This document shows, one piece after another, positions 2,563 to 33,282 of a DNA stretch of 64,000 nt. Within the stretch, counting starts at the first letter, position 1, and every line of letters begins with the position of its first letter. A program made the position numbers and the translations under genes. The notes beneath the pieces were generated by a model. That model was not told where the DNA came from. It worked only from the letters and a program-made list of their open reading frames with translations, and made no database searches. This DNA is from Diplolepis rosae (lineage: Eukaryota > Arthropoda > Insecta > Hymenoptera > Diplolepididae): assembly GCA_030998225.1 (NCBI GenBank), contig JAPYXD010000679.1, positions 2,170,001 through 2,234,000 of the forward strand, in the 5' to 3' direction.

Positions 2563-2749
2563 TGTCACGTCCCGCGACGTATTTGAATGTATATAATACA
2601 CACAGGCTGGTTTGAGTTAGAAATCTATGAGAGAATCGATAAAGGGGAATAGGGAGTAGGGGAAGTAGGGAGCAGTATAGGGCCCCTTCTCCTCTAAGAA
2701 GATATGACTACGTCACGATTTTCGCTGACCGTCAATTTGTATAGAAAAA

Positions 2750-2785
2750 TATAAAAGAGGCCCACACCAAGAGAAAGCAGTCAGT
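2750..2785 (+). promoter_or_regulatory. LTR promoter: TATA box plus arthropod initiator
   Basis: TATAAAAG at 2750-2757 is followed by the arthropod initiator TCAGT at 2781-2785. The distance from TATA to the A of the initiator is 33 bases, the expected spacing for RNA polymerase II. Genomic transcription most likely begins at 2783. The same pair is in the 3' LTR. Confidence 0.75.
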
Positions 2786-3387
2786 AAATTCTTCGTCTAG
2801 TTCGACACTTAAATTTTCCTTCGGATTTATAACCGGTCTCGCGACAATAGTCCAGTGCGGTATTTCAATTTAACTTCGGAAATCTCTGAGTTTGAGATTA
2901 ATAAAATTCGATTGGGACAATTTAAAATCCAAGTTCGGGAGTCGTAAAAGTCATCGTAGACTTGAATAGATCTTGTAAAGATCTTCGAAAAGTGTCGTAA
3001 ATTTGAATCGCCGCCCCTTACGGAATATACCTGTGCGGCCTATAACTCCGTCTCTCTCACACACTTGGAATACACCTGTGGGGATCCAGTACTTACAACT
3101 CACCGCCGTGTGGATTAAACCTCAACACAACTTACGAATCATAAAGGTACCGAACCTCTCTCTCTCTCTCTATCTTTATTCTTTGTCTCTTTCTCACCTA
3201 CGTACCAACCAGCCTGTGCCTACATTATATAAGAATTGTCTTAACGAATGTATATCCGGAAATTTTAACCAGTAAAATAAATTCAATTTGTATTATATTC
3301 ATAATCATTGTGTCTTTCATTGACTTATCCTCATCCCTAAGCGAGGATCATTCGATCCTAACTTAAAACGAGGAATCTTCGATCAAA

Positions 3388-3393
3388 GTAAGT
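3388..3393 (+). promoter_or_regulatory. Strong 5' splice site in U5
   Basis: AAA|GTAAGT is a near-consensus donor 28 bases before the LTR end and upstream of the primer-binding site. Several downstream ORFs of the element have a good 3' splice site just upstream of the ATG. This donor is therefore the natural common leader exon (about 2783-3387) for subgenomic mRNAs. It is inferred from sequence only. A second strong donor, AAG|GTAAGA, lies in pol at 8733/8734. Confidence 0.55.
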
Positions 3394-3430
3394 ATTTACG
3401 TATTTGTGACGTAACATACTTCCTTTTTTC

Positions 3431-3448
3431 TGGTGCATCGGCCGGGAA
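3431..3448 (+). promoter_or_regulatory. Primer-binding site, tRNA-Gly
   Basis: TGGTGCATCGGCCGGGAA is complementary to the 3' end of eukaryotic tRNA-Gly (acceptor stem GCATCGG...CCGATGC plus CCA) over 18 bases. It primes minus-strand DNA synthesis. It is separated from the LTR end by 14 bases, more than the few bases usual in this group. Confidence 0.85.
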
Positions 3449-4498
3449 ACACAAGTCAATTGAAAATTAACACTGATTATTTCTAGTGAATAAATAAATG
3501 ATTATAAAATATTATTTCAACTTGTAACTTGAAATTTCAATAAAATAGATTTGTTAGATCATAAAGGGATTTGACCTTGAGGCTAACCTTAATGATTTAA
3601 TAATCAAATCATTTCTTTGAAATTTTATAATTTATATAAATTGTATAAAATAAAATAAGTTTGAAAAATCACGCAGGGATCTGACCTTGAGGCTAACCTA
3701 AGTGATTAAGTAACTTATCTTATTTAAAAAATTATTCTAATTTGTTAACTAAGTTTTGATTTAAGTTAAAACAAACAAAAAAAACAGCACACGAGAGTAT
3801 AAGTCCCTTTTGGGTACGTTGAACGGTCACCATTGATTACGATCATTGGGTAGGGCAAAGTTCGAAGTGCTTGTGATTGTATTGTTTATGACTTTAATTT
3901 TAACTCTGTTAAGGAACATAATAATTTTATTTGCAAAGATTGTCCAAGGATCTGAGCTTGAGCCTAACTTGTCCAGTCTAGAGAAAAATAAATTGTGCAT
4001 AACTCGAATCTTATCTGATTATTGTTATAAACAATTTTATTTATTTAAAAAACAATTTATAATTCAATAAATTAATAAAATAGATCATTATAATTTATAA
4101 GACACACGTGGTTGGTACAAAATATATATATATATATTGTTATAATTTTAAGAAATGTATTATTTAACATTATAATTTTACGAAAATTGAGCGATTATTT
4201 ATTTATTTGAATATTTTATAGAATTATATTTTTATTTTATTATCTTATTTCCTAATGAAAGAGTAAAAATATTAATTATTGTTATAAACAAATAAAAATA
4301 ATTAAATTATATTTTGAAATTATTATTATAAATTTTTTGAATTTTTATAAATTAAAATTATATTTTTACTAATTTCACTTTATTTACAAACAAAATTTTA
4401 CATGTAGTTTTTTAAATTGTTATAAACAATCGATAATTAACAATAAATAATCTAAGATAACGCTCAACAAAAAGAAACTGTAAATTTATAATGACTCA
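3449..4498 (+). other. Untranslated leader with a triplicated motif
   Basis: About 1.05 kb of AT-rich leader separates the primer-binding site from gag. Three related blocks lie at about 3565-3598, 3675-3708 and 3945-3972. They share a core of the form GGATYTGACCTTGAGGCTAAC; the third copy is more diverged. A repeated leader motif could be a packaging or dimerisation signal. A 74-codon frame at 3846-4070 overlaps the third copy and has no recognisable similarity. Confidence 0.6.
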
Positions 4499-6370
4499 AT
4501 GTCAAATTCAAATACCCCTGTAGAATCCGTCCAAAAAGTTATTACGCGTAGTAAAGCAAAACAAGACAATCAACTCGCAAAAATTGTCGATCAGAATCAA
4601 ATAGATTCCTTGAAACTAAAAAGATCAGGTAAAATCAAAGAAAATTTAGTCGATTATAATAAATACAAGGATATTTCAAACACCTTTTCTGCTGAACAAG
4701 AATTAGATAACACTCTTCAGCTAGACGATTCACGTTTCGACAAGACTTTAATTAATGATCAAACCATATCAAGTGAAAATTCTAGTAAAACTAGCGGATT
4801 TCATTCAAGTTTCTATCCAGATTTGAGCATTGTGACAGGATCTAGTAATCAAGATCAAACATTAACGAACGAGTTATCTTATTTTGACGGATCTAATTTG
4901 CTAAGCTCAACGGTAATAACAATAGAAAATAGAAATTTGAAAGAAAAATTGAAAAACTCATTGGCACGCGACTCTCTAATTAGTAACAACGATAGCAACG
5001 ACGACAAAAGCGATACAGAAGTCATAAATCAGGATAATCCCGTAATAGTAAACAACGAAGAGATGGCCGCAGCCATACCTAACAGCCAGCAGGTATCCTT
5101 ACGCGACGCGCTAGAGGTGGTCCCTTTGTTCGACGGAAGTAACCTCCCATTGTCCCATTTTATTGAGGGTTGCATGGAAGCAAAGGCAATGCTGCCGACA
5201 CCTGCTGCCCAAGAAAATCTTGCACGTCTATTGAGAGGTAAATTGTCTGGTGAGGCACGAAAATGTATTTTTGGGTCAACGTATGCAACAATAGAGGAAT
5301 TAATAGAAAAATTGAAAAGAGTATATGCCCCTGCGAAAAGCGTATATCAATTGCAGGGAGAATTAGGTAATACATTTATGTGGGAAAGAGAAAATGTCCT
5401 TTCCTATGCTGCTAGAATTAAGGAAATTGCTGATAGAATAGAAGATACTCACAGACTTAATAATGTCGGTCAGGTAGATAATGCTTTCAAACAAAATTTA
5501 GAAAGAGATGTAATTCAATGTTTTATTCGAGTTTTGCGTCCTGAGTTAGAAATTCGTGTAGAAGAAAAGGACACATTTAAGGAAGTAGTTAATGATACAA
5601 TATACATAGAACGAAGACTGGCTGCATCTTCTGCACTGCGAAGAAATAGAAATACGGATTATTTAAAAACCGAAGAATCAATTAATAATAATAAAAGTAA
5701 TAAAACCACTCGATTCAACGTAGCACTTGAAAATAAAACTATTTGTTTAATTTGTAAAAAATCAGGTCACACAACTGAAAAATGTTTTCATTTAAGTAAA
5801 GCTCAAGATGCAGTTCTTAAGAATAAACAACAAAATTTGTTGAATCCTAACCAACAAAGATATATTAATTTCAATGGTGAAAGAGGTAATAATAATAATA
5901 ATTTTGCAAGAAACAATTACAATAATTTTCCAAATAACAATTTTTTAAGAAATAAAAATTATAATTTTAATAATAACAACAATCATTTTTTACAAAATAG
6001 AAATAACAATTATAGAAACAATAATAATAATTTTTTACAACAAAGATACAACAATAATAATAATTTGCCTAGAAATTTTTACAATAATAACAATAATGTT
6101 AATAATACTAATAGACAATTGAATCCAGGACAGTATAAAAACTTTAACTGAGGACAGTTTCAAAATCGAAATAAACCATATGAAAATAGATTTTTACAAA
6201 ATAATAACACTCAACAAAATTCAAATTATACTGAAATAATTTGCAATTACTGTAAACAACCCGGTCATTTAGTACGAGACTGCAAGATACGACCAAATAA
6301 CCAATCACAAACAGCTAATCAGGAAAACTCCAAAGCTCTGCCCAGCACGGGTGCACTGAGGAAAGCATAA
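4499..6370 (+). CDS. gag: Gag, with an in-frame TGA before the second zinc knuckle
   Basis: Gag forms the particle and binds the RNA genome. The first frame (4499-6151) has 550 codons. It has a charged, low-complexity N-terminal third, then a retrotransposon capsid-like region at about 206-375 (starting EVVPLFDGSN and ending with an IERRLA helix). A CCHC knuckle follows at about 415-428 (CLICKKSGHTTEKC), then an Asn-rich tail. It stops at TGA (6149-6151). The same frame then stays open to TAA at 6368-6370 and encodes a second CCHC knuckle (CNYCKQPGHLVRDC). Either the TGA is read through or it is a mutation of this copy. The pol frame opens at 6319 in the minus-one frame, so a -1 shift within 6319-6370 would make Gag-Pol. 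The start is the first ATG of the open frame. Confidence 0.88.
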
Positions 6371-8799
6371 ATCGAGAACCACTGGCATCCACTTCTAACG
6401 ATCATACAACAACAACAATAAATATTTCAAAGTCCACTTCAATTCCATCAATTATAATATCAACGGAAGGTCTAAAAAATCCAACACACATGATGATTGA
6501 TACTGGTGCTGCTCGAAATTTAATTAAACAAAAGGTTCTCAACCCTGAACTACCCATAAATAGCCAAAACGTATTGAAACTTACAGGAATTAATGATTTA
6601 CCACTTTACACGTTAGGACAGGTAAAAATAAACATTTTTGGTTATCCAACGATATTTAACATTATTCCCAATGAAGTCCCAGTAGAAGAAGATGGAGTAT
6701 TAGGATCAGAATTTTTTCAAGATAATAGTGTGAATATAAACTATACTTCAAAATGCTTAGAAATTGAGAACCACTGTTACCCTTTTAAATCTGCCAATAC
6801 ATTTACTATTCCAGCTCGAACAGTTACAACATTTTATGTTAATATAAAAAATACAGAAAAGAGTGAAGGGTATGTACCTCGATTACATATCCAAGATGGC
6901 GTCTACGTAGGTGACGCAGTTGTAAAAAATCACAGAGGAAAAGCTTATTTAAAATTTGCAAACACAAATGAAATCCCAATTACATTATCCGTCCCATTAG
7001 TTAATTTAGAAGACTTTGAAGAACAAGAATGTTATAAACAAATTGAAAAATTAATTAATTTCAAACAAACAAATAACGAAGATTTATCAAGTAAAATATT
7101 AAATAACTTTTTAAAAACTGACAATTCTCTAATTAACTCATGCAAATTTTATAATGTAACAGACGAAGACAGAGTAGAATGTATTAAAAAACTTCTTCGA
7201 TTAGACCACTTAAATCAAGATGAATATGAACATGTAGAAAAATTAATTAAAAATAATGCAGACAGATTTCAAATCCCCGGAGAACCACTTGAAGCTACTA
7301 ATGTATTACAACATTCAATCCCTACTGTAGATGACGCTCCAATTTTTTCAAGACAATATAGATTTCCCCCAGTTCACAAGGAAGAAATAACAAGACAAGT
7401 CGATGAATTATTAAAAAATAAAATAATAAAGCCCTCACAATCACCATATAACACTCCAGTGTGGATAGTTCCTAAAAAACCTGATTCTCAAGGAAAAATA
7501 AAATGGAGAATGGTTCTTGATTTTCGTAAATTAAATGAAAAAACAATTGGCGATTCGTATCCTCTACCTAATATAAACGATATACTTGATTCTCTAGGGT
7601 CAGCAAAATATTTTTCAGTGTTTGATTTAGCTACCGGTTTTCACCATATAAAAATGGACCCAAAAGACTCACATAAAACCGCATTTTCTACACCTCACGG
7701 TCATTACGAATTCGATAGAATGCCTTTCGGTTTGAAAACTGCACCAGCCACATTTCAAAGATTAATGGATTTAACATTAACTGGATTAATCGGAACGGAA
7801 CTTTTTGTATATCTTGATGACATAGTTATATATGCAAATACTCTAGAAGAGCACGAAATTAAATTCAACAATTTAGCAGAAAGACTTAGAAAAGCAAATC
7901 TTCACTTACAACCAGACAAATGCGAATTTTTACGACCTGAAGTAGGATATTTAGGTCATATAATTGATAAAAATGGAGTACGTCCAGATCCAAAAAAGAT
8001 AATAGCTGTAAAAAACTTTCCAGTCCCAAAAACACAGAAAAATGTTAAACAATTTTTAGGCTTAGCAGGATATTATAGACGATTTATTGATGGATTTTCA
8101 AAAATTGCAAGTCCTTTAAATCAACTTCTAAAAAAAGATATACCTTTTAATTGGACAGAAAAACAACAAGCAGCTTTCGATATTTTAAAAGTAAAGTTAT
8201 GTGAAGAACCACTTTTACAACGACCTGATTTTTCTCAACCCTTTATACTCACAACAGATGCCTCAGGATTTGCAATAGGAGGTATTTTATCACAAGGTAA
8301 AATAGGTAAAGATAAACCAATAGCATATGCTCCACGTAGTCTAAGTGATACTGAGAAAAAATATGATACATATGAAAAAGAAGCCCTTGCTATAATATTT
8401 TGTGTAACTCATTTTCGTCCTTATTTGTATGGAAGAAAATTTACCTTAGTGACTGATCACAAACCTCTAGTTTGGTTTCAAAATTCTAAAAACCCTTGTT
8501 CACGAGTTTCACGTTGGAGATTAAAACTCGCAGAATATGATTTTGATGTAATTTACAAAGCAGGAAAAATGAATGTAAATGCAGATGCTCTCTCAAGAAA
8601 CCCTATTGATGATAGCCAGGAAAAATCAAAATATTTACAAGTTGATGACAATGATACTTTCATGACTTCTCAAGAAAAAACGTTTTCCAAGAAAACTTTT
8701 ACAAGAAATAAACAAGAAAACTCTAAAAATAAGGTAAGACCTTTAAAACGAAAAAAACTTGAATCCGGGAATGGTACCAGACGACGTAGATCATTTTAG
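6319..8799 (+). CDS. pol: Pol part 1: protease, reverse transcriptase, RNase H
   Basis: The frame is open from 6319; the first ATG is at 6490 (residue 1 below). An aspartic protease has its DTG at residues 4-6 and the GVLGSEFF block near 70. Reverse transcriptase follows, with catalytic D379 in the VFDLATGF block and YLDD at 441-444. RNase H has DASGFAIG from 590 and TDHKPL from 655, and ends with NADALSR near 698. All catalytic residues visible to me are intact. Motifs and order fit insect Ty3/gypsy errantiviruses. The frame ends at 8799, where the next pol frame (+1) is already open from 8747. A single polyprotein would need a +1 shift in 8747-8799; separate expression by splicing is the alternative. 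A consensus splice donor lies at 8733/8734. Confidence 0.95.
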   Translation, partial: SGKLQSSAQHGCTEESINREPLASTSNDHTTTTINISKSTSIPSIIISTEGLKNPTHMMIDTGAARNLIKQKVLNPELPINSQNVLKLTGINDLPLYTLGQVKINIFGYPTIFNIIPNEVPVEEDGVLGSEFFQDNSVNINYTSKCLEIENHCYPFKSANTFTIPARTVTTFYVNIKNTEKSEGYVPRLHIQDGVYVGDAVVKNHRGKAYLKFANTNEIPITLSVPLVNLEDFEEQECYKQIEKLINFKQTNNEDLSSKILNNFLKTDNSLINSCKFYNVTDEDRVECIKKLLRLDHLNQDEYEHVEKLIKNNADRFQIPGEPLEATNVLQHSIPTVDDAPIFSRQYRFPPVHKEEITRQVDELLKNKIIKPSQSPYNTPVWIVPKKPDSQGKIKWRMVLDFRKLNEKTIGDSYPLPNINDILDSLGSAKYFSVFDLATGFHHIKMDPKDSHKTAFSTPHGHYEFDRMPFGLKTAPATFQRLMDLTLTGLIGTELFVYLDDIVIYANTLEEHEIKFNNLAERLRKANLHLQPDKCEFLRPEVGYLGHIIDKNGVRPDPKKIIAVKNFPVPKTQKNVKQFLGLAGYYRRFIDGFSKIASPLNQLLKKDIPFNWTEKQQAAFDILKVKLCEEPLLQRPDFSQPFILTTDASGFAIGGILSQGKIGKDKPIAYAPRSLSDTEKKYDTYEKEALAIIFCVTHFRPYLYGRKFTLVTDHKPLVWFQNSKNPCSRVSRWRLKLAEYDFDVIYKAGKMNVNADALSRNPIDDSQEKSKYLQVDDNDTFMTSQEKTFSKKTFTRNKQENSKNKVRPLKRKKLESGNGTRRRRSF

Positions 8800-11260
8800 C
8801 GAAATTCCAGAAGCCCCAATATTAAATATTGACACAAAAATTCCAGAATTTTTACAAGAATTCCTTAGTGAAGCATCATTTAGTGAGATTGGTAAGAATA
8901 TTTTAAAATACACAAATTTATTCAAAAATATGGCTTCAAGACTTATTTTTATGACAATATGTTTATTAAGTCCAATGTTTTCCAAAAAATACGAAAATTT
9001 ATCATGGAAAACTATTACCACAAGAGCTCAAAAGAGAATACAACAAGAAAAAGCAAAAAATTTGAATCAAAATGAAATCCAAGAAAAATTAGACAAAAAT
9101 TTTTCTTCTAAACCTCTTGTGAAAAAACCTCGAGGTAGGCCAAGGAAGAATCTACTTACAAATTTGAAAAATATTCCCTCTCAAACAAAAAGAAAGAGAG
9201 GTAGACCAAGAAAACAAATATATGAAGATGATTTACCAGAAATAAATATGCAAAAAGGAAACCGAACACAAGTAGAATCAGATTCCGACTCTGATCCTGA
9301 TTATTTAGATTATTTGAAACAAGCTCAAGCAAAAAACAAAATGAAGAAGAATGCCAAGAAGCGAAAAAATATTAATGAATTTGAAAGCGAAGAAAGTGAG
9401 AATTATTTTTCAACCTCAGAAGATGAAATCAACGACATTGAAACCTCACACGAAGAAAATGATGGAGAAAATTATGAAGAAAATTTGGAAGATAATTTTG
9501 AAGATGATCTTGAAGACAATTTCGAAAACAATTTCGAACAGAATTTTGAAGAAAATTTTGAAGACAATCTTGAGGAAAATTTTGAAGAGAAGTTTGAAGA
9601 AAACCAAGAAGAAAAATTGGAAGAAGAATTTGAAGAGCCTTATTTTGAAGAAAATTTGAGATTAAACCGAAGATCTCAAATAAATTGTGAAAAAATCGAT
9701 AAAGATCATGATAATTATAATCGCCCACCCCCAGAACCTCCTCCTATAAACTCTCAAACAGAAAAAATTATAACAAGGAAAAATTTAGTTGAATGTCGCG
9801 ATCAATTAACTATGCGAAAAGATAATTATGCATATTTTGTTACAACAAATGGAACTCCTCGCGACAACGGATCAAAAACTTTAGAAAAACGTGAAATTTT
9901 ACCAAAATTTAAAAATTTACAAAAAGGGATAGCAAAAGAGATTAAAAAAGGAAACTACTACCATTTTGCACTTCCAATTGAAGAAGAAACTAAAGACAAT
10001 TTATCCGAAACATTAAATAATATAAAATTATCAATATACTCATTACATGAATTATCTCAAAATCTGAAGTTACGGTCAATTAGTATTTCTAAAACTTCCA
10101 GAATTAATCATATACTTTGGGAAGAAGTGAAATCAATTTTTGACTCAATTTTTTCAAATTCTACTACAAAAATTATAGTTTGCAATGGAATAACGCAATA
10201 TCCATCAAAAGAACAACAAACTCATTTAATCAAAGAAGCTCATTCTTCAGCATTAGGAGGCAATAAAGGCGTCACAAAAACTTATAGTCGAATTCGCCAA
10301 ATATTTTTTTGGGAAAATATGAAAGTAGACATTCAAAAATATATTCAAGGCTGTTTACAATGTCAACTGAAAAAATTAATCAGAGTCAAAAAAAAAAATC
10401 CTATGGTAATCACAGACACACCCACTACTGCTTTTGAAAAAATATCAATGGACATTGTTGGTCCACTACCTGAAACAAAATCTGGTAACTTATATATTCT
10501 AACGATACAAGACAATTTTACCAAATATTCTTTAGCAATACCTCTTCCTAATCACCAAGCTAGTACAATAGCAGATACTTTCATGAAAAAATTTATTTGC
10601 ATATTTGGATCACCAAAAGGAGTACTTACTGACCAAGGCAGAGATTTTTTAAGTAATTTATTAAAAAGATTGGCAAAACGTTTTAGAATTAAACAATTTC
10701 GTACCACAGCTTTTCATCCTCAATCAAACGGATCATTAGAACGTTCACATCATGTTTTAGGAGAATATCTCAAACAATTTGTTGCAAAAAATTCAGAATG
10801 GGATGATTGGCTTGAACTAGCAATGTTCTCGTATAATACTAGTGTACATGAAGGCACAAAATGCACACCCTATGAATTGGTTTTTGGTAAATTAGCTCGT
10901 GAACCTTCCAGCGAACCTTTATCACAACAAGAAAAATTACAAACGTATGATGATTATTTAATTAATTTCGTAACTCAACTACACGAAATGCGAACACAAG
11001 CAAGAGAGAATCTTATTTCAGCAAAAGAAAAATCGAAAATATATTATGATAAAAAAATAAATCCCTTGGAAATAAAAATTGGGGATAATGTATTTTTATT
11101 AAAGGGAGGAAAAATAAAAAAACTAGAGAACCATTATACAGGGCCTTATGAAATATTGGAAGTGTTAGGAAAAGGGAATGTCAAAATAAGCTATAAAGGC
11201 AAACCTACTGTAGTTCACATTAATAGACTAAAACGCTCACACGTACAAGTACAAAAGTAG
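8747..11260 (+). CDS. pol: Pol part 2: AT-hook/acidic extension plus integrase
   Basis: Residues are counted from 8759; the first ATG is at 8771. The N-terminal region of about 480 residues is not part of normal Pol. It has two AT-hooks (RGRPRK at about 125-130 and 147-152), a basic patch, an acidic repeat built on variants of EENFEDN at about 205-300, and a proline run near 323-329. Integrase follows. In its zinc domain H495, C532 and C535 are present, but the second His position is N502. The DDE core is D565, D625, E661 (35 residues between the last two). A GPY motif lies in the C-terminal domain (HYTGPYEILEV). Integrase inserts the cDNA into host DNA; AT-hooks could steer it to AT-rich DNA, but that is inferred. 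An insertion this large between RNase H and integrase is unusual. Confidence 0.9.
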   Translation, partial: NEKNLNPGMVPDDVDHFSEIPEAPILNIDTKIPEFLQEFLSEASFSEIGKNILKYTNLFKNMASRLIFMTICLLSPMFSKKYENLSWKTITTRAQKRIQQEKAKNLNQNEIQEKLDKNFSSKPLVKKPRGRPRKNLLTNLKNIPSQTKRKRGRPRKQIYEDDLPEINMQKGNRTQVESDSDSDPDYLDYLKQAQAKNKMKKNAKKRKNINEFESEESENYFSTSEDEINDIETSHEENDGENYEENLEDNFEDDLEDNFENNFEQNFEENFEDNLEENFEEKFEENQEEKLEEEFEEPYFEENLRLNRRSQINCEKIDKDHDNYNRPPPEPPPINSQTEKIITRKNLVECRDQLTMRKDNYAYFVTTNGTPRDNGSKTLEKREILPKFKNLQKGIAKEIKKGNYYHFALPIEEETKDNLSETLNNIKLSIYSLHELSQNLKLRSISISKTSRINHILWEEVKSIFDSIFSNSTTKIIVCNGITQYPSKEQQTHLIKEAHSSALGGNKGVTKTYSRIRQIFFWENMKVDIQKYIQGCLQCQLKKLIRVKKKNPMVITDTPTTAFEKISMDIVGPLPETKSGNLYILTIQDNFTKYSLAIPLPNHQASTIADTFMKKFICIFGSPKGVLTDQGRDFLSNLLKRLAKRFRIKQFRTTAFHPQSNGSLERSHHVLGEYLKQFVAKNSEWDDWLELAMFSYNTSVHEGTKCTPYELVFGKLAREPSSEPLSQQEKLQTYDDYLINFVTQLHEMRTQARENLISAKEKSKIYYDKKINPLEIKIGDNVFLLKGGKIKKLENHYTGPYEILEVLGKGNVKISYKGKPTVVHINRLKRSHVQVQK

Positions 11261-11474
11261 ATAAATAAAAAAATAACAAACAAAATATCTTTACTTTAAT
11301 TATAAAAAATATGTATACATATACAGTTTAAACAAAATATAGAAATTTTATTTTGTCGATAAATGGTAAAAATAAAAAAAAAATATACATATATAAAATT
11401 TATATAAAAATATATATATTTTATATAAAAAATATATACAACAAATTTAGACATAACACATTATTCCAGATATA
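11261..11474 (+). other. AT-rich spacer between pol and the CARD ORF
   Basis: About 215 bases of almost pure A/T with runs of TATATA. No gene is seen. It ends with the 3' splice site at 11469. Confidence 0.6.
11456..11469 (+). promoter_or_regulatory. 3' splice site before the CARD ORF
   Basis: CACATTATTCCAG ends at 11469, five bases before the ATG at 11475. The pyrimidine tract is short but the position fits subgenomic mRNA splicing. Confidence 0.45.
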
Positions 11475-11906: not shown

Positions 11907-14383
11907 ATGGGATTACGAGGCTTCCTTTTGGCACTGCTCATTTGAAAATTCAACTATATAACAACAGTCTACGCCATCATAGGATTCGATTGCGGTTCAA
12001 ATCAATCAAATATTACGACATTATCTTTACTAGAGGTAGGAGAATGTGATGTACCTCGATCTCAAGTACATGTTGAAAGGGTTTATATACAACTTTTACA
12101 ATTAACTGGATTTTCAAATACAAAAGTAATACAATGCAAAATAGAAATTCGACGCGCCATCTCTCATTGTGGTATGCATTCTCACAGTTCCATAGTTGCA
12201 AATGGCCACAGTGAATATATACATGATGTTACACGAGATCAATGTAATCAAATGCACACAATTGGCAAAACAAACGTCCACCGCGGGCTTAGGGGCGCTG
12301 CTGCATGAAAACAATCATGGCTGCCGCAGGGCTTCGGCGTTCACGTATTTACTGTTGATCTGAATAGGACTTTTCAAATTACGTTTATCTGTAAGTGCTA
12401 ATAATGCTTTTGTGGTCGTTAAATACGTTATGCGAGTACGTACAAGCACTGCCTTTACGAGTAAAGTCCTTTCCTTTCCTGTGCTTCGGTGAGAGTTCCA
12501 TTTTCGCGCTTATATTTATTTATGCATTTGTAACTTAATTTTTATGTTAACTCTATATTTATTTGTCAAACAATTGATCAATTACTGCGTTACACTGTGA
12601 GCATCTGGCTTTAGTATAGTATACACAATGCTGCGCGAAGCCCAACGCTAGCCATATTGATTAGTTCGCTTGTCGACAACCAGGTCTCGCATTGCAAGTT
12701 TGAATTGCCAATAGGAACATTTTTAGCAACCCCTTCTCTTCAGATATCAAAGTTAAAAGTAAATGAAACTTCATTTCATAGCGTTACTTTAGCAGGTTCT
12801 GTAAAACCTAATGGAGACTGTACTGGTACACAACTTTCTGACCCATATGGAACATGGAATAATGTCGTAGTCCAAGCAATATTCAAAATAACTTTACAAG
12901 TACATTACGCGACTATTCATTTAAATTCAAATAAAATTCAATTAGGATCTGGAATAATATGCACACTTTCAGACACATTCTGTACAGACGTAGAATATGG
13001 ACAAACATTCTGGGATACATTACCTAATGACGTATGTAATTTTAACAAATATGAAATTATTTATGAAGGACCAGCAAATAAAACATATGACAACACGACA
13101 GACATTTCTGAAACCTTGTATTCTTTAACGACTGAAGATATAACCTTTGTAATGGGTGAAAAAACAAGAAAACCAGTTTGCAGTTACGTTTTAATACAAA
13201 CTGAACATCCAAAATTATTAATTTTTGAAACCAGACCTGGGAATTCATTTTTAGAAAATAAACATTTAGAAGTTCAAAATATGGACATTTTCACATACGT
13301 CAACTCTAAATTTATATATGTAGAACGACACATACGCACTGAAGTAAATAGACTTTATCACGATGTTCTTACTCAACGATGCATACTTGAACAGCAAGTT
13401 TTTAGAAATACATTAACCTTAGCAACCCAATCACCAGACGAATTTGCATATCATCTAATGAAAGGCCCAGGATATATGTCAGTAATTGCAGGAGAAGTAG
13501 CACATATCGTAAAATGTATACCGGTTGAAGTAAAATATCGCAAAACTGAAGAATGTTATCTACAACTACCAATATTTAGAGGAAATCAATCCTTTTTCCT
13601 TTCTCCACGAACTCATATATTAACAAAATCAGGTATCCAAACAAATTGCAATTCTTTCCTTCCACCAATGTACCTTTTTGGAGAAACCTGGTACAAATTA
13701 CTTCCAAATCCTGTCGAATCCATAGCACCAACTATAGTTAAACTTCTCACAAAAGCAACCTGGAAATACACAAATCCTTCATCCTTAGCAACAAGTGGCA
13801 TTCTCAATCTGACCTTGATAAGCTACGAGATCATATAATGTTCCCAGCAGAAAAACCAATGATTTTAAATTCTTTAGCTAGAGAAATAACAGGACATCCG
13901 ACTATTAATCAAGGAATATCATTGACAAATTTATTTAACCAAGAAGTAATTGATAAAATTGCTGAATCAGCTTGGGATAGATTTTGGACAGTTTTTACAA
14001 ATTTCGGTACTACTAGTGCAGGTCTAATTGGATTAATTATAATAATTAGAGGGATCAAATTAATAGCAGATACCATTATTCATGGTTATGCATTACATAG
14101 ATTATTTGGATGGTCTCTCCATTTACTAGGCGCCTTCTGGGATTCGGTCACTAACCTTTTGTTACACTTAGGTACCAACCGACCTGCTGGACCTCCCGCT
14201 GAGAGCCATCAACCACTGCTTACAGCTTCAGCACCACAAAACTCTATAGAGGAAACTAAAAGTTCATCTCCTAACGAAAATACCAATTCAGGTAAAGATC
14301 ATAATAGTACGAAGACTACTCTTTATCCTCACTCTGAACTAAAAGAAGAACTTAGTAGATCACATTATTCAATCCGAATCTAA
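11907..14383 (+). pseudogene. env: Envelope 1: chuvirus-type glycoprotein, broken in this copy
   Basis: A class of glycoprotein known from chuviruses (negative-strand RNA viruses of arthropods) that insect LTR elements have captured before. The start at 11907 sits just after a splice acceptor and opens a signal-peptide-like stretch (MGLRGFLLALLI), followed at once by TGA (11943-11945) in frame. A Cys-rich ectodomain frame then runs to about 12275. A roughly 0.4-kb insertion interrupts it, and the ectodomain resumes near 12670. A one-base frame change lies near 13800. The last part (from 13838) carries a hydrophobic membrane segment near 14009-14075, a second hydrophobic stretch and a Ser/Asn-rich cytoplasmic tail. 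The conserved block LPNPVES and the segment FGTTSAGLIGL support the family call. Three defects mean that this copy is probably not functional. Confidence 0.75.
12275..12670. mobile_element. Small insertion inside envelope 1
   Basis: Base composition turns GC-richer and coding potential stops. Near both ends lie imperfect inverted blocks: AATCATGGCTGCCGCAGGGC at 12313-12332 and its diverged complement at about 12636-12662. This looks like a MITE or fold-back element. I could not identify a target duplication, so the edges are approximate. Confidence 0.5.
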
Positions 14384-14394
14384 CATCTTAAAGA

Positions 14395-15009
14395 ATGTCG
14401 CATGTTCCTTTCACAACCTTACTAAACAAAATTATTCAACAAAGAGGAGATCCACCCCTCATTTATGAGATACTCATTGAACAAACTAATAATAATGAAT
14501 GTCTATTTCACGTTAATTTACAATATAACAATTATATAATAATGAATAGTGGCAAAGATAAAGAAAACGTAAAGCAAAAGGTAGCACAAAATTTATATAA
14601 TGCCTTAATTAATGAATCAAAGGAAACAAATCAAAACGTCCAACCGAATTCTATTGGTAAAAATTTCAAAAAATTAAACGAAATTTGCACTCAAAATAAA
14701 ATCGAGTATCCAAAATATACAGTATTACGAGTAAAAACTTCATCAAAAAACTCAACATACATAGCAATTTGTTTTATTAATGATATCAAACGAATAGGAA
14801 TTGGAAACACAATAAAAACAGCAATGGATTTCGCAGCTATAAAAACGATAAATTCTCTTTTGCAAAAAGATAAAAAATGTGAAGTAAATTTAATAAACTC
14901 ACTAGAACATTTGCATGTTACAATCCAAGAATCACTTATAAATGATCCAAAACCTTCAACGAGTGGTCAGATACAAAACCTAATATTAACAGTCGTTTTA
15001 AAAATATAA
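14395..15009 (+). CDS. dsRNA-binding protein 1, two dsRBDs
   Basis: A 204-residue ORF. Residues about 4-73 and 86-157 each fit the dsRBD fold: helix 1 with a P-x-x-x-L-x-K start, three strands, then a basic loop before helix 2 with conserved alanines (KVAQNLYNAL and IKTAMDFAAIKTI). Such proteins bind double-stranded RNA without sequence preference. Viral examples shield dsRNA from Dicer or act on small RNAs, so an RNA-silencing suppressor is a reasonable inference. Beyond the stop, another frame continues to 15125 and holds a half zinc knuckle (CFKC) followed by Pro-rich residues. An ancestral dsRBD-knuckle architecture, as in the two paralogues, has therefore probably decayed or shifted frame. 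The AG just before the ATG (14393) is only a weak acceptor. Confidence 0.78.
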   Translation: MSHVPFTTLLNKIIQQRGDPPLIYEILIEQTNNNECLFHVNLQYNNYIIMNSGKDKENVKQKVAQNLYNALINESKETNQNVQPNSIGKNFKKLNEICTQNKIEYPKYTVLRVKTSSKNSTYIAICFINDIKRIGIGNTIKTAMDFAAIKTINSLLQKDKKCEVNLINSLEHLHVTIQESLINDPKPSTSGQIQNLILTVVLKI

Positions 15010-15131
15010 ATCCTTATAAAATAAAAAGAAATAATATTTCTACTACATCGCCTTTTTCTGGAAAAAGCTTTAAGAAATGTTTTAAATGCGGATATAGACC
15101 CCCCAACCAGTACAATAAATTCTAATATAAA

Positions 15132-15149
15132 TATTCCATACTGATTCAG
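15132..15149 (+). promoter_or_regulatory. 3' splice site before dsRBD protein 2
   Basis: ATTCCATACTGATTCAG ends at 15149, 13 bases before the ATG at 15163. TACTGAT is a good branch-point candidate but is very close to the AG. Confidence 0.4.
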
Positions 15150-15162
15150 GAAATCATCTATA

Positions 15163-15748
15163 ATGGAGCATTACTATGATGAGCCTACCCACGTGCGAAG
15201 TTACAAAAAAGAGATATGTAGAACAGACTCTCTGGGACTTTTAAACCACGTGGAAATTTTGAGAAATTTTACGATAAAATATGGATTACCGTTACCACAA
15301 TACATCGTTTATCCTGATCCAAATTCAAAAACCAAATCATTTTTTCTTGCTCAAGTTAATACAAACGATCATTTTGCTGTACAAGCGGGTCCTACAAGCG
15401 AGTTAGCCGAAAATAGAGCTGCTTTAAAAATTACTACAAATATTAATAAGATCTTATGATCTTTGCGATGAGGATTTTTATAATAATAAATGTAAAGAAA
15501 CAAAAAAAACGAAGAATCAAAGTGTTCAAACTGATCCAAGACCAAAATTAGTATCATGGAAAAATTCATGTAGATATTGTAACACTCAAATGCATGCTAC
15601 AAAAGAGTGCCGTAGACGGAATGTTTTTAAAGCTGATAAATCAACACAAGTTCCCCCTCCACTTCCACCACGAAACTCCTCAACATTTAGTAATCTATTT
15701 TCCCCTTTTTTCCAAAAAACTTCTAGACCTAAATCCAACCATATGTAA
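15163..15748 (+). CDS. dsRNA-binding protein 2 with CCHC knuckle, frame break at a TGA
   Basis: The first frame (15163-15459, 98 codons) has a charged lead and one dsRBD at about 24-97, ending in an Ala-containing helix 2 (ELAENRAALKITT). It stops at TTA TGA (15454-15459). The +1 frame continues without a stop to TAA at 15746-15748. That frame encodes a CCHC knuckle (CRYCNTQMHATKEC), a PPPLPPR proline motif and a basic tail. The order dsRBD then CCHC matches protein 3 (18931-19449), so the two parts belong together. Either a +1 ribosomal shift at the TGA or a one-base indel in this copy explains the break. Its acceptor at 15149 suggests its own spliced mRNA. Confidence 0.72.
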
Positions 15749-15777
15749 ACATCCAATTTTATCCAATACTAATCCTT

Positions 15778-15792
15778 TTTTTTCTTTTTCAG
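15778..15792 (+). promoter_or_regulatory. 3' splice site before envelope 2
   Basis: A long pyrimidine tract (TTTTTTCTTTTTCAG) ends at 15792, 16 bases before the ATG at 15809. It is the strongest acceptor in the element and matches the spliced env mRNA known for errantiviruses. Confidence 0.7.
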
Positions 15793-15808
15793 CCATTCGA
15801 GAAGCATA

Positions 15809-17590
15809 ATGAAATTCCTATACCAACCACCTTATGGCGTATACTTGATGCTAATTCTGTTTTTCACTTCTAAAGCAGATAACTTGTATATCAATTCACA
15901 ATTTTATCACTCATCTGGTATTTATTTTGAACCAATTTCAAAAATACGTCTATTTTCCGAAAATTATAATTTTATCTCTTATTTTGACATTTTGCAACCA
16001 GAAAACTTAAAATATAAAATAGTAGATATATCTCACAAACTTTATGAACATTGTATACTCACAAATATTGCAAACAACTGTAATATATATAATCACCACA
16101 TTCAGCTTGAATTTATGAAAGATCGTATTAATTATTTTCTCGGAGAAATTTCATTTATATCCAGACAAGCTCATAACATCACTAAAATTCACAAAAATAG
16201 TGATCCATTTTTACATCAAATTCAAAAAGTTCTTCTACAATCAAAAATAAGACAAAAAACTTCTCTTTATTGGCCTAAAGAAAATTTGTTCCTACTCCTA
16301 AATCCATTTTCTGAACAAATTAAAAATCTTTCATCCAATCTCAATAACGTTAAGATGTACAAAGACTGGCATAAATCACAAATTTACCCAAATTTGCACA
16401 TTTATAGAATTCTTGCAGCAAATTGGCTGATGGACTTGCATGAAATATCCCGATCCTTTCTATCACTCCTAACACAGCTTACGGAAGCTATGACCCATGC
16501 CGCCACAAATTTATGGCACCCCATGCTGCTTCCAGATACCTTTCTAGACTTCAAATCCAACAAAGAAGATCCTCACCTTCCAACGTCTCTTTTTTCTATG
16601 GTCATTCCATTTTCTAAAATAAGATACTTTACTTTCAATAACTACTTAATTTTTACTATGACCATACCAATTCCATCTTCTGAAGAATTTCAAGTATTTA
16701 AAACACATTCAACCCCTATACATTTTGACTTCAACACTGATTATATTATACCTATATTCATAAAACCTCAATTTTCTTATATCGCGTTTTCTCCAAATAA
16801 CGAATCTTACTTCACAACAAATGAAAATTTCCTCGCTTCATGCCACCAAAATGGACTTCAAAATTTTTGTCACCCTCCTCATTCCATATACAGTACTCAA
16901 AATATTCCTATTTGCGAAACATCAATGTTTATAAAATCCCAACCGTATAAATGTAAAACATTCATAAGTTTCAATGAATATCCTTTTTTAACACCACTGT
17001 TGTCACACCGTGGATGGCTTTATTCAACTATTCTTCCTAAGCAAATCTTTTTATCTTGCTCCAAAAATTCCAAAACCGTTATTACTCTTCAAGGAATAGG
17101 AATTTTACAAATAGAATCTGACTGTAATTTGGACTCATCAATTCCATACTATAATATTAAAAATTACCCAAAAATAATGGATAACTCAATTCCACTTAGT
17201 AAATCGACCACTTCTCTTGAAATAATTTCTCCCTTCTTATATAATATGTCGATCACAGAACCTCACTTGTTAAAAAACGTGTTACATCTTTTTCATAAAA
17301 AAGATGACATGCTTATATCGACTTTTGAAAGTCATGTTTTTCTACTCACAAAATATGCTAATATTCAGAAAATTATCCCATCTATTTTTAATTCTAGTGC
17401 ACATAAAATATATATAGCACATACTATAGTTACTTTTCTTATAATAATTATTCTATTAATAATACTAATTAAAATTCAAAAAATTTCAAAAAAAACTAAT
17501 AAAAATATAAATGAAATTAAACTAGATCAGAAAACTCCTCTTAGCCTATCAACAAAACCTCTTCTAAGTGACCTATCATTCAAATTTTAA
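15809..17590 (+). CDS. env: Envelope 2: errantivirus/baculovirus F-like fusion protein
   Basis: An intact 593-residue ORF. Residues 1-23 form a signal peptide. The stretch beginning SGIYFEPISKIRLFS is the typical start of insect errantivirus Env and the related baculovirus fusion protein F. There are regularly spaced Cys and N-glycosylation sites in the ectodomain. A single membrane anchor of about 24 residues lies near 533-556 (TIVTFLIIIILLIILIKI), followed by a short Lys-rich tail. I do not see a clear furin site. It would mediate membrane fusion. It is unrelated to the first glycoprotein in this element, so the element codes two envelope types. The frame is open throughout, in contrast to envelope 1. 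Confidence 0.8.
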   Translation: MKFLYQPPYGVYLMLILFFTSKADNLYINSQFYHSSGIYFEPISKIRLFSENYNFISYFDILQPENLKYKIVDISHKLYEHCILTNIANNCNIYNHHIQLEFMKDRINYFLGEISFISRQAHNITKIHKNSDPFLHQIQKVLLQSKIRQKTSLYWPKENLFLLLNPFSEQIKNLSSNLNNVKMYKDWHKSQIYPNLHIYRILAANWLMDLHEISRSFLSLLTQLTEAMTHAATNLWHPMLLPDTFLDFKSNKEDPHLPTSLFSMVIPFSKIRYFTFNNYLIFTMTIPIPSSEEFQVFKTHSTPIHFDFNTDYIIPIFIKPQFSYIAFSPNNESYFTTNENFLASCHQNGLQNFCHPPHSIYSTQNIPICETSMFIKSQPYKCKTFISFNEYPFLTPLLSHRGWLYSTILPKQIFLSCSKNSKTVITLQGIGILQIESDCNLDSSIPYYNIKNYPKIMDNSIPLSKSTTSLEIISPFLYNMSITEPHLLKNVLHLFHKKDDMLISTFESHVFLLTKYANIQKIIPSIFNSSAHKIYIAHTIVTFLIIIILLIILIKIQKISKKTNKNINEIKLDQKTPLSLSTKPLLSDLSFKF

Positions 17591-17930
17591 CTACTTCTTT
17601 TCAAACCCATTTCAAACCCCTTTTCAGGACCCATATGTTCCATCCTTTCAACCTTCCTGGTACAAGTACAATCCATCCCTCTCTTTCTATACTGTAAAAC
17701 CACAGCATGATCATTGGGAATGTACCTTTAGAAGAACAGTTTTTGTAAGGGTATTGTAATATAAGAATTGTTTTTCTAATGGAGAAGTAGAATACCTTTC
17801 AATAATGTATAACTTCTGTTAGAATCAAATTTCGGTACTTTTGCACGAATTAAATAGATAAAGTATAAAAATTATATAATCAAGGGTATAGTTAAGTAAA
17901 TTTAGATCCCTTTCTTTTTAAATTTATAGA
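17591..17930 (+). other. Spacer after envelope 2 with a spare splice acceptor
   Basis: No convincing gene. A 63-codon frame at 17568-17759 overlaps the env tail and has no recognised similarity. CCCCTTTTCAG ends at 17627, an acceptor not followed by a long ORF. The acceptor for the next gene is at 17929. Confidence 0.45.
17908..17929 (+). promoter_or_regulatory. 3' splice site before Cys-rich protein 1
   Basis: A pyrimidine-rich tract and AATTTATAG end at 17929, one base before the ATG at 17931. Good acceptor. Confidence 0.55.
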
Positions 17931-18338
17931 ATGATTCCGACTGCGGCAGAACCGATCGTGTTCCACTCAGGACCTGTGGACGGTGTATGTCCACAGGATT
18001 ATCCAATCACATATGGACATTTAATAAATAGTTTTTGTTTCGACTTAGAAGAGTCAACCTTATTCATTTATTACAGTCAGCAAACAACAAAGAAATTTTG
18101 CCAATTTTGCTTCGAAAAATTACCAATTCCAGAACAAAATGAATACGAATTCTGTACCTCATGGCACTCAGTTTGTAAAATACAATGCGTTAATATGAAT
18201 TGTAACGGTTGTAGGGAAGCATTAATAACGCCACGCTGTAGGGCAATCGACTGTAAAGGTTGTACTGAGCAATTCTTAAAAAATAAAATGCAACTTCAAT
18301 TAGGAAACGAAGTTATAGTTGAAAATGTTTTTCGATAA
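17931..18338 (+). CDS. Cys-rich zinc-binding protein 1, family unknown
   Basis: A 135-residue ORF with 12 cysteines. The core spacing is C57-x2-C60-x30-C91-x2-C94-x13-C108-x2-C111. The next gene has exactly the same x30 and x13 spacings, so the two are paralogues. Three CxxC pairs imply at least one structural zinc site. There is no signal peptide or membrane segment, so it is probably intracellular. I recognise no known family; RING and BIR patterns do not fit. Its position among dsRNA-binding and CARD genes suggests a role in countering host defence, but that is only guilt by association. Confidence 0.7.
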   Translation: MIPTAAEPIVFHSGPVDGVCPQDYPITYGHLINSFCFDLEESTLFIYYSQQTTKKFCQFCFEKLPIPEQNEYEFCTSWHSVCKIQCVNMNCNGCREALITPRCRAIDCKGCTEQFLKNKMQLQLGNEVIVENVFR

Positions 18339-18437
18339 AATATTATAAATTGTAGTCATAAATAAAATTTCAAATATGTCTAGAAAATTCTCTTTAAGCA
18401 AAACACTGTTAGGATCTAGTTAGTATTTTAAAGCTCA

Positions 18438-18455
18438 ATAACGAATTTGTTATAG
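18438..18455 (+). promoter_or_regulatory. 3' splice site before Cys-rich protein 2
   Basis: AATAACGAATTTGTTATAG ends at 18455, four bases before the ATG at 18460. The tract is moderately rich in T; AATAAC is a branch-point candidate. Confidence 0.45.
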
Positions 18456-18459
18456 AAAA

Positions 18460-18822
18460 ATGCTGCCGCAAGATTTTGAATCCATTCAAGCCGAAAATCC
18501 AGAAAACGACGAACAGTACTACCAACCGTATATCGATCAAATAATTATGAAACATTTTTGTTGTTACTCTCCAGAAAACGAAATATATCAGAATACTTTA
18601 GATCAAAAATTCATATGTAAAGAATGTTACAGATTTAAAATTACCTTTTTTGAATCAGAAATATCTGTACCTTTCCTTAACCGCCACATTGTAACCACGG
18701 ATCTTAACGGATTAAAATGTTCTGTCTGCGAAGAGCAAATTTTTTTCATACGTTTCAGAGCAGACCAATGTTTTCTTTGCACTGAATATCTCTTTGAGTT
18801 AGCAAACGCGGAAAACGAATAA
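18460..18822 (+). CDS. Cys-rich zinc-binding protein 2, paralogue of protein 1
   Basis: A 120-residue ORF with 8 cysteines. The core is C53-x2-C56-x30-C87-x2-C90-x13-C104-x2-C107, the same spacing as the preceding gene although overall identity is low. The N-terminal third is acidic (many Glu/Asp/Gln), unlike protein 1. No signal peptide or membrane segment is seen. The pair probably arose by duplication inside the element and then diverged. Function and family are unknown to me. Confidence 0.7.
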   Translation: MLPQDFESIQAENPENDEQYYQPYIDQIIMKHFCCYSPENEIYQNTLDQKFICKECYRFKITFFESEISVPFLNRHIVTTDLNGLKCSVCEEQIFFIRFRADQCFLCTEYLFELANAENE

Positions 18823-18908
18823 TTTATAATCCATATACATAATTATTAACAATAATAATAACTAATTTCCATTTATATCAAATTAAATCACAAACAACTC
18901 AAATAGAT

Positions 18909-18921
18909 AATTCTTTTGCAG
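18909..18921 (+). promoter_or_regulatory. 3' splice site before dsRBD protein 3
   Basis: AATTCTTTTGCAG ends at 18921, nine bases before the ATG at 18931. Good acceptor. It supports using 18931 rather than an upstream non-ATG codon as start. Confidence 0.6.
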
Positions 18922-18930
18922 ATAAGGACA

Positions 18931-19449
18931 ATGGCAATGCAACAAAGAGATTTGACAAAGGGTAGCGCAGTACAAATACTTAATGAAATAAGTATTGAAT
19001 ATGATTTTTCAATACCAGAATACACAGTAAAATCTCTTGGAATACATCAAGAACTACCGCCATTCGAGGCAACTTGTGAAATTTTAAAAAATAATGTAAC
19101 CTATGCTTGTGTTGGAGAACCTGCGTTCCAAAAGAAAGTAGCAAAACAAAATGCAGCAGCTAGAGTCTTGGAAACACTTTCCACGAAATATATATTTTTA
19201 GAAGAAAAGTTAGAAAAATGCTTAATAACAGAATCTAAATTTTATAATATAAGCGATAAAAACAATAAAGAAGCTTTACAAAAATGGACTAATTCATGTG
19301 AAAGGTGTTTTCAAAGAGGACATTTAGCTCGTAACTGCCGCAACCCTCTACGTAATAAAAAATATAAAAATAACCCTTTAAAGAATATTTTCACTAATCT
19401 ACTACATTATAAAAATTATATTTTATATATTACAGCATGTTATTTATAA
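18931..19449 (+). CDS. dsRNA-binding protein 3 with CCHC knuckle
   Basis: An intact ORF of 172 residues from the first ATG after the splice acceptor. One dsRBD spans about residues 9-87, with helix 2 carrying the basic/alanine signature KKVAKQNAAARVLETL. After a linker comes a CCHC knuckle, C123-x2-C126-x4-H131-x4-C136 (CERCFQRGHLARNC). The tail is Lys/Asn-rich, then hydrophobic. A dsRBD fused to a Gag-type zinc knuckle is an unusual combination; it could bind dsRNA and viral RNA together. It is the only undamaged member of the three-gene dsRBD set here. Silencing suppression is inferred from the domain, not shown. Confidence 0.82.
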   Translation: MAMQQRDLTKGSAVQILNEISIEYDFSIPEYTVKSLGIHQELPPFEATCEILKNNVTYACVGEPAFQKKVAKQNAAARVLETLSTKYIFLEEKLEKCLITESKFYNISDKNNKEALQKWTNSCERCFQRGHLARNCRNPLRNKKYKNNPLKNIFTNLLHYKNYILYITACYL

Positions 19450-19840
19450 TTTACAAATATAAAATACCCCATTCACGTATAAAAAATATTAATGTATTCA
19501 GTTATATAACAAAATAAATCATTGTAACCTTATATTAATACTAAGTTCAAACTATTTTGAAAAAAAAAAAAAAAAAAAACTATGTAATAATTTATAACAA
19601 AAACTTTTAATATTAAGACAATATAAATTTGTATCCAAAAAATATGTTAATATTTGAATTTATCAAATTGTGAAAATGCAAAAAAAATACAAATTGTAGA
19701 ACAAACGTCGAAATGAATGTTATATTTATCATTCAGATATTGTTATCAGAAAAAGAGTTGAATGTATTTCTTCAAAACAAAAAAATGTATTCTTCTACCG
19801 AAGTTTCGATCGCGGATCGTTAACTCCCCGCGCTCGAACT
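19450..19840 (+). other. 3' non-coding region of the giant element
   Basis: AT-rich, with an A-run at 19560-19580 and no gene. It becomes GC-richer just before the polypurine tract. Confidence 0.6.
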
Positions 19841-19851
19841 GAGGGGGGAGG
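19841..19851 (+). promoter_or_regulatory. Polypurine tract
   Basis: GAGGGGGGAGG directly abuts the 3' LTR. It is the RNase H-resistant primer for plus-strand DNA synthesis. Confidence 0.9.
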
Positions 19852-20703
19852 TGTCACGTCCCGCGACGTATTTGAATGTATATAATACACACAGGCTGGT
19901 TTGAGTTAGAAATCTATGAGAGAATCGATAAAGGGGAATAGGGAGTAGGGGAAGTAGGGAGCAGTATAGGGCCCCTTCTCCTCTAAGAAGATATGACTAC
20001 GTCACGATTTTCGCTGACCGTCAATTTGTATAGAAAAATATAAAAGAGGCCCACACCAAGAGAAAGCAGTCAGTAAATTCTTCGTCTAGTTCGACACTTA
20101 AATTTTCCTTCGGATTTATAACCGGTCTCGCGACAATAGTCCAGTGCGGTATTTCAATTTAACTTCGGAAATCTCTGAGTTTGAGATTAATAAAATTCGA
20201 TTGGGACAATTTAAAATCCAAGTTCGGGAGTCGTAAAAGTCATCGTAGACTTGAATAGATCTTGTAAAGATCTTCGAAAGGTGTCGTAAATTTGAATCGC
20301 CGCCCCTTACGGAATATACCTGTGCGGCCTATAACTCCGTCTCTCTCACACACTTGGAATACACCTGTGGGGATCCAGTACTTACAACTCACCGCCGTGT
20401 GGATTAAACCTCAACACAACTTACGAATCATAAAGGTACCGAACCTCTCTCTCTCTCTATCTTTATTCTTTGTCTCTTTCTCACCTACGTACCAACCAGC
20501 CTGTGCCTACATTATATAAGAATTGTCTTAACGAATGTATATCCGGAAATTTTAACCAGTAAAATAAATTCAATGTGTATTATATTCATAATCATTGTGT
20601 CTTTCATTGACTTATCCTCATCCCTAAGCGAGGATCATTCGATCCTAACTTAAAACGAGGAATCTTCCATCAAAGTAAGTATTTACGTATTTGTGACGTA
20701 ACA
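19852..20703 (+). repeat. 3' LTR of the giant element
   Basis: 852 bp, matching the 5' LTR apart from three substitutions and a two-base shorter CT run. AATAAA at 20563-20568 is the polyadenylation signal. It is followed by the target duplication CATT at 20704-20707. The sequence then resumes the interrupted left arm. Confidence 0.96.
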
Positions 20704-33060: not shown

Positions 33061-33282
33061 TTAAGTTCATAATAATGACGTATACTTGTAATTTGTAAAA
33101 ACATTACTTTTTTTCTTTGGATCATTCTGCAATTCTGCAATCTTGTTTGAAATGTGTGTTACAACTTTACTGACTTCTTCATCCACAACCTCTTCTGAAT
33201 AGTGACATTGTTCCACCAACCAGTGTCTAGTAATATCTAATAAAAATGCAGCGAATTTTCTTCCATTATTAAATAGAAATCC

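Follow-up and report, generated by a model that had tools for sequence, protein, structure and literature searches.

A multi-copy Ty3/gypsy provirus family of Diplolepis rosae with eight genes downstream of pol, two of them for unrelated envelopes

A stretch of 64,000 nucleotides from the hymenopteran Diplolepis rosae (assembly GCA_030998225.1, contig JAPYXD010000679.1, positions 2,170,001 to 2,234,000 of the forward strand; hereafter the window) contains a complete Ty3/gypsy provirus of ~18 kb at positions 2563-20703, in which gag and pol are followed by eight further genes on the same strand. In order, these code for a CARD-like protein, a chuvirus-type fusion glycoprotein (GP), two proteins with double-stranded RNA-binding domains (dsRBD1 and dsRBD2), a baculovirus-F-type envelope (env), two cysteine-rich proteins (Cys1 and Cys2) and a third dsRBD protein (dsRBD3). 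The copies found elsewhere in the same genome support a multi-copy, recently active long terminal repeat (LTR) family with this gene order. We consider it probable that the family has a genome built like that of a complex retrovirus, including the splicing and the protein roles proposed below, and we give about even odds to the wider reading, i.e., an invertebrate complex retrovirus that has long kept two fusion proteins, three antagonists of RNA silencing and one of cell death, and is still copying itself, perhaps as particles.

Complete LTRs, a CATT duplication, a primer-binding site (PBS), a polypurine tract, gag, pol and eight additional same-strand genes had all been claimed in the original prediction, and all were recovered here, the genes by their frames and by Pfam profiles used with family cut-offs. 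The LTRs of the window copy (termini TGTC...AACA) are identical at 849/852 aligned bases, with 3 mismatches and one indel of 2 bp within a CT repeat. The element is flanked by CATT on both sides; most LTR elements have target duplications of 4-6 bp, and the 4-bp length is a feature of Metaviridae. The PBS-like 18-mer presumably fits tRNA-Gly, and within the leader between it and gag, a 65-bp repeat occurs twice at a distance of 110 bases (3539-3713). The reverse transcriptase (RT) matches Ty3 Gag-Pol at E 3.2e-97, and a Ty3-type RT-RNase H followed by the integrase between LTRs is likewise a feature of Metaviridae; a Pao-type pol, as in Anakin and the Belpaoviridae, was not found, as the RT is Ty3-like and Pfam gives no Pao family. 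Ahead of the integrase lies a spacer of more than 450 aa (8771-10200) that has an acidic repeat and carries the AT-hook-like motif RGRPRK twice; such a spacer is unusual for a gypsy pol. Between pol and the 3′ LTR (11261-19851) there are 11 stop-free frames of at least 90 codons in sense and one in antisense direction, vs. a mean of 0.94 and a maximum of 5 in random sequences of like composition (n = 200).

The window's own genome (757,744,533 bases in 428 contigs) was scanned with GP, dsRBD3, and RT, giving 102, 150, and 58 scored matches among 2228, 2314, and 13179 first-look candidates, respectively (those for RT include other gypsy elements). Pair counts cover the matches listed, window copy included, and a partner missing among them does not mean that it is absent from the genome. 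Of the 102 listed GP matches, 43 have a same-strand dsRBD3 match at most 16 kb downstream (129 of the 150 dsRBD3 matches used), at a spacing of 6,169-6,223 bp in 32 of these 43 pairs; two pairs among the listed matches had a wrong orientation or an upstream dsRBD3. GP was located within 12 kb downstream of 27 of the 58 listed RT matches, with a spacing of 5,726-5,798 bp in 21 of the 27 pairs and none in the wrong orientation. For subfamily A, 16 copies (L009-L024) were chosen for neighbouring GP and dsRBD3, and pieces of 9.8 kb were analyzed: all 16 carry the eight genes and the LTR in the order of the window, and 15 have the integrase end as well. At locus L016 (contig C413, ~1654-1675 kb), two same-strand GP matches lie 12.6 kb apart, less than one element length, and form a tandem or nested pair.

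The gene order is repeated by a strongly diverged second subfamily, B, represented by eight copies (L040-L047) selected solely for a long frame of GP (774 aa, or 816 in one copy). The order through Cys2 and the LTR end are present in 8/8, and dsRBD3 was placed in five, the longest match of the other three having fallen on dsRBD2. Amino-acid identity between B and the window copy (matched parts) is 88% for CARD (one partial match 80%), 97% for the middle and 88% for the end of GP, 89-92% for dsRBD1, 82-83% for dsRBD2, 70-72% for env, 65-66% for Cys1, 34-39% for Cys2, and 66-71% for dsRBD3; the B LTR resembles that of the window over its last 142 bp only.

The copies were inserted independently, some of them very recently. 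Pieces expected to cover the 5′ LTR were retrieved from 15/16 A copies and contained it in 14, of which 11 have a perfect 4-bp target duplication (by the same check, none for L010, L012, and L013); mismatches within the LTR pairs range from 0 to 21, with zero in L013, L018, and L019, and the exact 18-mer PBS string is found in 7/14. The expectation that several independent copies share one gene order was thus borne out. The opposite case, in which the block 11475-19449 would occur in a single copy or consist of separate insertions, is excluded, because the same block is found in 24/24 further copies, with duplications of their own in 11 of the 14 that could be compared at both ends. For the same reason, we can practically dismiss the idea that the window copy alone was put together by separate, nested insertion events or by chimeric assembly, for which the one private insertion inside GP could be adduced. 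Positions of all features are given in Table 1.

Table 1. Features of the provirus in the window (positions counted from the first letter of the 64,000-nucleotide stretch)
Feature	Position	Strand	Basis or remark
5′ target site duplication CATT, 4 bp	2559..2562	.	
5′ LTR, 854 bp	2563..3416	+	match to 3′ LTR
PBS-like 18-mer	3431..3448	+	starts 14 nt past 5′ LTR
gag	4499..6371	+	CCHC motifs at 5744 and 6242; in-frame TGA 6149-6151
pol part 1 (protease, RT, RNase H)	6319..8799	+	Pfam RT/RNase H at 6490-8799
pol part 2 (acidic spacer with AT-hook-like motifs, integrase)	8747..11260	+	Pfam integrase range 8771-11260
CARD-like protein, 93 aa	11475..11756	+	PF00619, E 0.001, under cut-off in window copy
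Chuvirus-type fusion glycoprotein GP	11907..14383	+	Monjiviricetes_fusion PF24664, three pieces
Insertion in GP, ~443 bp, private to window copy	12266..12708	.	
dsRBD1, two dsRBD stretches, CxxC end	14395..15125	+	dsrm above cut-off
dsRBD2, dsRBD and CCHC knuckle at 15569	15163..15748	+	dsrm under cut-off
Baculovirus-F-type envelope, 593 aa	15809..17590	+	Baculo_F
Cys1, Cys-rich, 135 aa	17931..18338	+	
Cys2, Cys-rich, 120 aa	18460..18822	+	
dsRBD3, dsRBD and CCHC knuckle at 19297	18931..19449	+	dsrm above cut-off, E 1.2e-6
Run of 20 A	19560..19579	+	3′ of dsRBD3
Polypurine tract, G-rich	19841..19851	+	directly 5′ of 3′ LTR
3′ LTR, 852 bp	19852..20703	+	match to 5′ LTR
3′ target site duplication CATT, 4 bp	20704..20707	.	

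In order to compare substitutions between the subfamilies, pN/pS was calculated from open frames of A vs. B, leaving out broken or over-long frames; the GP comparison used 24 pairs with 12/16 A copies (a stricter first length limit had passed 1/16). The ratios were 0.21 for GP, 0.23 for dsRBD3, 0.25 for env, 0.26 for dsRBD2, 0.27 for CARD, 0.32 for Cys1, 0.33 for dsRBD1, and 0.48 for Cys2, and corrected dN/dS, available for six genes, was 0.14-0.28. Fisher tests with one pair per gene gave p-values from 2.5e-3 (CARD) to 5e-65 (env), which are non-independent as the pairs share ancestry, and synonymous sites are near saturation in Cys2 and partly in Cys1 and env. These results support purifying selection on all eight genes between the subfamilies, both envelopes included. 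Synonymous divergence between A and B is uneven along the block (GP 0.13, CARD 0.21, dsRBD1 0.29, dsRBD2 0.87, env 1.24, Cys1 1.9), which suggests that proviruses of the two subfamilies recombined in the region as far as GP and dsRBD1. Selection could also have acted through the host, if the genes were used mainly by it (e.g., in antiviral defence or cell fusion), and retroelement envelope and dsRBD genes have been co-opted in other animals; here, the genes travel together within moving LTR copies with new duplications and occupy no single conserved locus, and we regard such co-option as very improbable.

The two envelopes claimed in the original prediction to be unrelated were confirmed as such within one element. 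Three pieces of GP match PF24664 at E 7.6e-141 (middle), 3.3e-39, and 4.1e-43, and env matches Baculo_F at E 5.8e-17 in the window copy and 6.1e-23 in a subfamily B copy, with a strongly hydrophobic stretch close to its C-terminus. The three predicted dsRBD proteins held up in part: dsRBD1 (dsrm in 17/17 relatives at E ≤ 0.1) and dsRBD3 exceed the dsrm cut-off, and dsRBD2 stays below it, with E 0.012 in the window copy and 0.0014 as a further score. By sequence comparison with solved structures, the first dsRBD stretch of dsRBD1 is weakly like Loquacious (E 0.0038-0.0068) and dsRBD3 is weakly like TARBP2 and Staufen (E 0.026 and more); comparing the three dsRBD proteins with each other revealed no close paralogy. 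A CCHC motif occurs in the dsRBD2 zone of 23/24 copies and in the dsRBD3 zone of 24/24. The A run behind dsRBD3 is the longest in the window and lies 47 nt past an AATAAA, and runs of 10-27 A are found near the equivalent site in 14/16 A and 6/8 B copies; the run may be a relic of the tail of an mRNA that was captured.

The predicted CARD gene finds a match at E ≤ 1 in 25/31 scanned relatives (best 1.3e-5) and does not reach the cut-off in the window copy, and CARD is the least secure domain assignment of the set. Its profile matched only repeat designs and influenza PB2 among solved structures, which we took as chance. The two Cys-rich proteins are indeed rich in cysteine; their predicted paralogy is weakly supported, by a 25-residue match (E 0.001), a profile match (P 8e-4, 24.9% probability) and an identical order of three CxxC pairs. 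A RAG2_PHD candidate in Cys1 was dropped, being under the cut-off and present in 2/13 members. Cys1, GP, and env gave no useful match when compared by sequence with solved structures, and neither the PHROGs search (six proteins) nor the Rfam search gave any match. No relative was seen in the viral contigs scanned with dsRBD1, env, RT, GP, integrase, and alignments of dsRBD1 and CARD, nor in prokaryote genomes in one RT scan.

Acceptor-like AGs sit shortly upstream of the start codons in both subfamilies. Among the 866 AGs of the element, that of env has the best acceptor score and that of GP the sixth, and the distance from AG to ATG is equal in A and B for CARD, dsRBD1, dsRBD2, and env; for Cys1 and dsRBD3 it differs by no more than 2 nt. 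A permutation of acceptors gave p 0.0005, a value helped by control ATGs without a nearby AG. Judging from these signals, separate spliced mRNAs for the accessory genes are likely.

In the explanation we propose, each accessory gene would have a spliced mRNA of its own, with the AG ahead of the start codon as acceptor. Particles may bear GP, the F-type protein, or both on their surface and fuse with cells by means of them. By binding double-stranded RNA of the element, the dsRBD proteins (dsRBD2 and dsRBD3 with a CCHC knuckle of retroviral type) would protect it from Dicer and RISC. The CARD-only protein may act as a decoy that occupies a CARD of the host, probably in the apoptosome, and the Cys-rich proteins may be zinc-binding regulators. 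Infectivity, suppression of RNA interference (RNAi) by the dsRBD proteins and suppression of apoptosis by the CARD-like protein, all already put forward in the original prediction, are properties that we infer from the kinds of protein.

Several observations weigh against this explanation. The CARD cut-off is exceeded by one relative alone (25.5 vs. 23.9 bits), and the score in subfamily B is 15.5 bits. The acceptors of the genes other than env and GP are singly unremarkable, and that of Cys2 differs in position between the subfamilies. A furin-type RX[KR]R motif is lacking in the F-type env of the window and in 22/22 env frames of other copies (≥ 380 aa). Many copies are broken, with a full-length env in 5/16 A and 5/8 B copies, and a test for conservative substitutions between relatives from other assemblies and the window copy gave no signal, the changes looking neutral, like random mutation.

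The decay of many copies, these neutral-looking substitutions and the at least seven interruptions of the window copy despite its young LTRs are what would be expected if the accessory block had been acquired once and carried along unused as passive cargo. We attribute the neutral look of the relatives to the decay of dead copies and to the damaged reference. All eight ratios lie well below 1 between the subfamilies, and the order was kept despite divergence of env, Cys1, and Cys2 to ~71, 66, and 38% identity, which leaves passive carriage a slim chance. A stronger competitor, which we nevertheless consider rather unlikely, assigns the proteins other jobs: the dsRBD proteins would be packaging or replication factors (a second nucleocapsid), and one envelope would serve entry, the other acting as a decoy, a superinfection blocker or an assembly protein. 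The Gag-like CCHC knuckle that ends dsRBD2 and dsRBD3 in nearly all copies and the F-type env without a furin motif are in its favour, whereas the two dsRBD stretches of dsRBD1, the first of them Loquacious-like as given above, and the selection acting on both envelopes speak against it. In addition, a dsRBD protein of an invertebrate virus, 340R of the iridovirus IIV-6, is a proven suppressor of RNAi according to the parts of the source drawn on here (PMC4231766).

The window copy itself is a damaged member of the family, broken at no fewer than seven places (gag, pol, three in GP, dsRBD1, and dsRBD2), a condition that the original prediction had overlooked. Besides the stop in gag (TGA at 6149), the pol frame breaks within 8747-8799, leaving part 2 out of frame with part 1, and GP is disrupted by a TGA close to its start (11943), by the private insertion, which is missing from 24/24 other copies, and by a frame change at 13838. 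Inverted repeats in the insertion score 36, not above shuffles (maximum 39). Frame changes near 14970 and 15440 imply that dsRBD1 and dsRBD2 are both longer than their open reading frames in the window. Elsewhere in the genome, pol is intact as a single frame of at least 1600 aa in 17/58 scored RT matches, and GP frames of at least 670 codons are present in 12/16 A and 8/8 B copies. The three LTR mismatches correspond to ~1.2 new stop codons expected by substitution since insertion, and as the lesions exceed this number, the probable explanation is either a copy that was already defective when it was inserted or base errors in the assembly. The GP frame change at 13838 coincides with an overlapping TAATG, whose ATG is also the annotated start of a relative in another assembly (P0046), although most copies in the window's own genome have a continuous GP.

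Relatives in other assemblies numbered 49 for dsRBD1, 51 for CARD, and 20 for Cys1, and 40 of these 120 proteins have matches at two or more sites in the window. Domain likeness only (dsRBD1-dsRBD3, Cys1-Cys2) accounts for 16 of the 40, neighbouring spacer only for seven, and other matches for two. The remaining 15 join genes: integrase with CARD in two, CARD with GP in three, GP with dsRBD1 in two, dsRBD1 with dsRBD2 in five (one of them reaching into env), and Cys1 with the Cys2 stretch, with the spacer following that stretch, and with the LTR in one relative each. In another relative (P0040), dsRBD1 is followed by sequence like window positions 62309-62482 (- strand), which is a repeat inserted in a dsRBD1 copy.

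Elsewhere in the window, a second, different gypsy-type element on the - strand (33067-37752) retains pieces of gag, protease, RT, RNase H, and integrase, with no env seen. Three head-to-tail frames with a 298-base spacing and near-identical 80-aa translations form a tandem repeat at 63022-63860, and frames at 49351-50355 and 56818-57480 (both - strand), which by eye resemble pieces of a mariner transposase, are presumably such remnants.

With insect endogenous retroviruses and errantiviruses, the element shares a Ty3/gypsy pol, LTRs with a 4-bp duplication and a baculovirus-F-type env after pol. The sections of the source used here describe insect endogenous retroviruses as having one env, an F-type Env in the third open reading frame, with the furin site among its most conserved motifs (PMC12992720). 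Measured against that description, the F-type Env is present and the furin site is absent, so that plain errantivirus membership is not supported; a second, unrelated fusion protein and six further genes are added. Anakin, a Pao element, carries a chuvirus glycoprotein (PMC7642597, in part) and thus resembles our element in having such a gene within LTRs, but as far as that account goes it differs from the Ty3/gypsy-type pol, second envelope, and six more genes found here; errantivirus and Anakin are both named as envelope captures in the portion of PMC12440569 used. Glycoproteins of Jingchuvirales adjoin Gypsy fragments in Hymenoptera and Coleoptera, and capture by Gypsy was sought there without clear evidence, as stated in the part of PMC10084718 drawn on. 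The same kind of glycoprotein near Gypsy is shown here inside complete LTR copies, and those cases are possibly fragments of elements like the present one. A grouper iridovirus encodes a CARD-only protein of 91 aa that inhibits apoptosis (PMC4457926, in part). As far as these sources go, this protein and 340R share with those of the element the domain type only and, as genes of DNA viruses, are precedents for the mechanism, not relatives.

In the literature searched, with full texts covered in part, we found no LTR element combining two envelopes with dsRBD and CARD genes. A similar layout is that of the complex retroviruses of vertebrates, whose gag-pol precedes a number of small genes on the sense strand that are probably spliced; here, the genes are unrelated to those, the envelopes are of two kinds and the pol is that of Metaviridae. 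Eight selected accessory genes would put Metaviridae at a complexity known from vertebrate retroviruses, and two unrelated fusion proteins in one provirus would represent either an exchange of envelopes still in progress or the use of both. Should silencing be blocked by the dsRBD proteins, this would be a transposable element with its own counter-defence against RNAi or the piRNA pathway. Set beside these known systems, the element is a new, complex-retrovirus-like form of the env-bearing Metaviridae.

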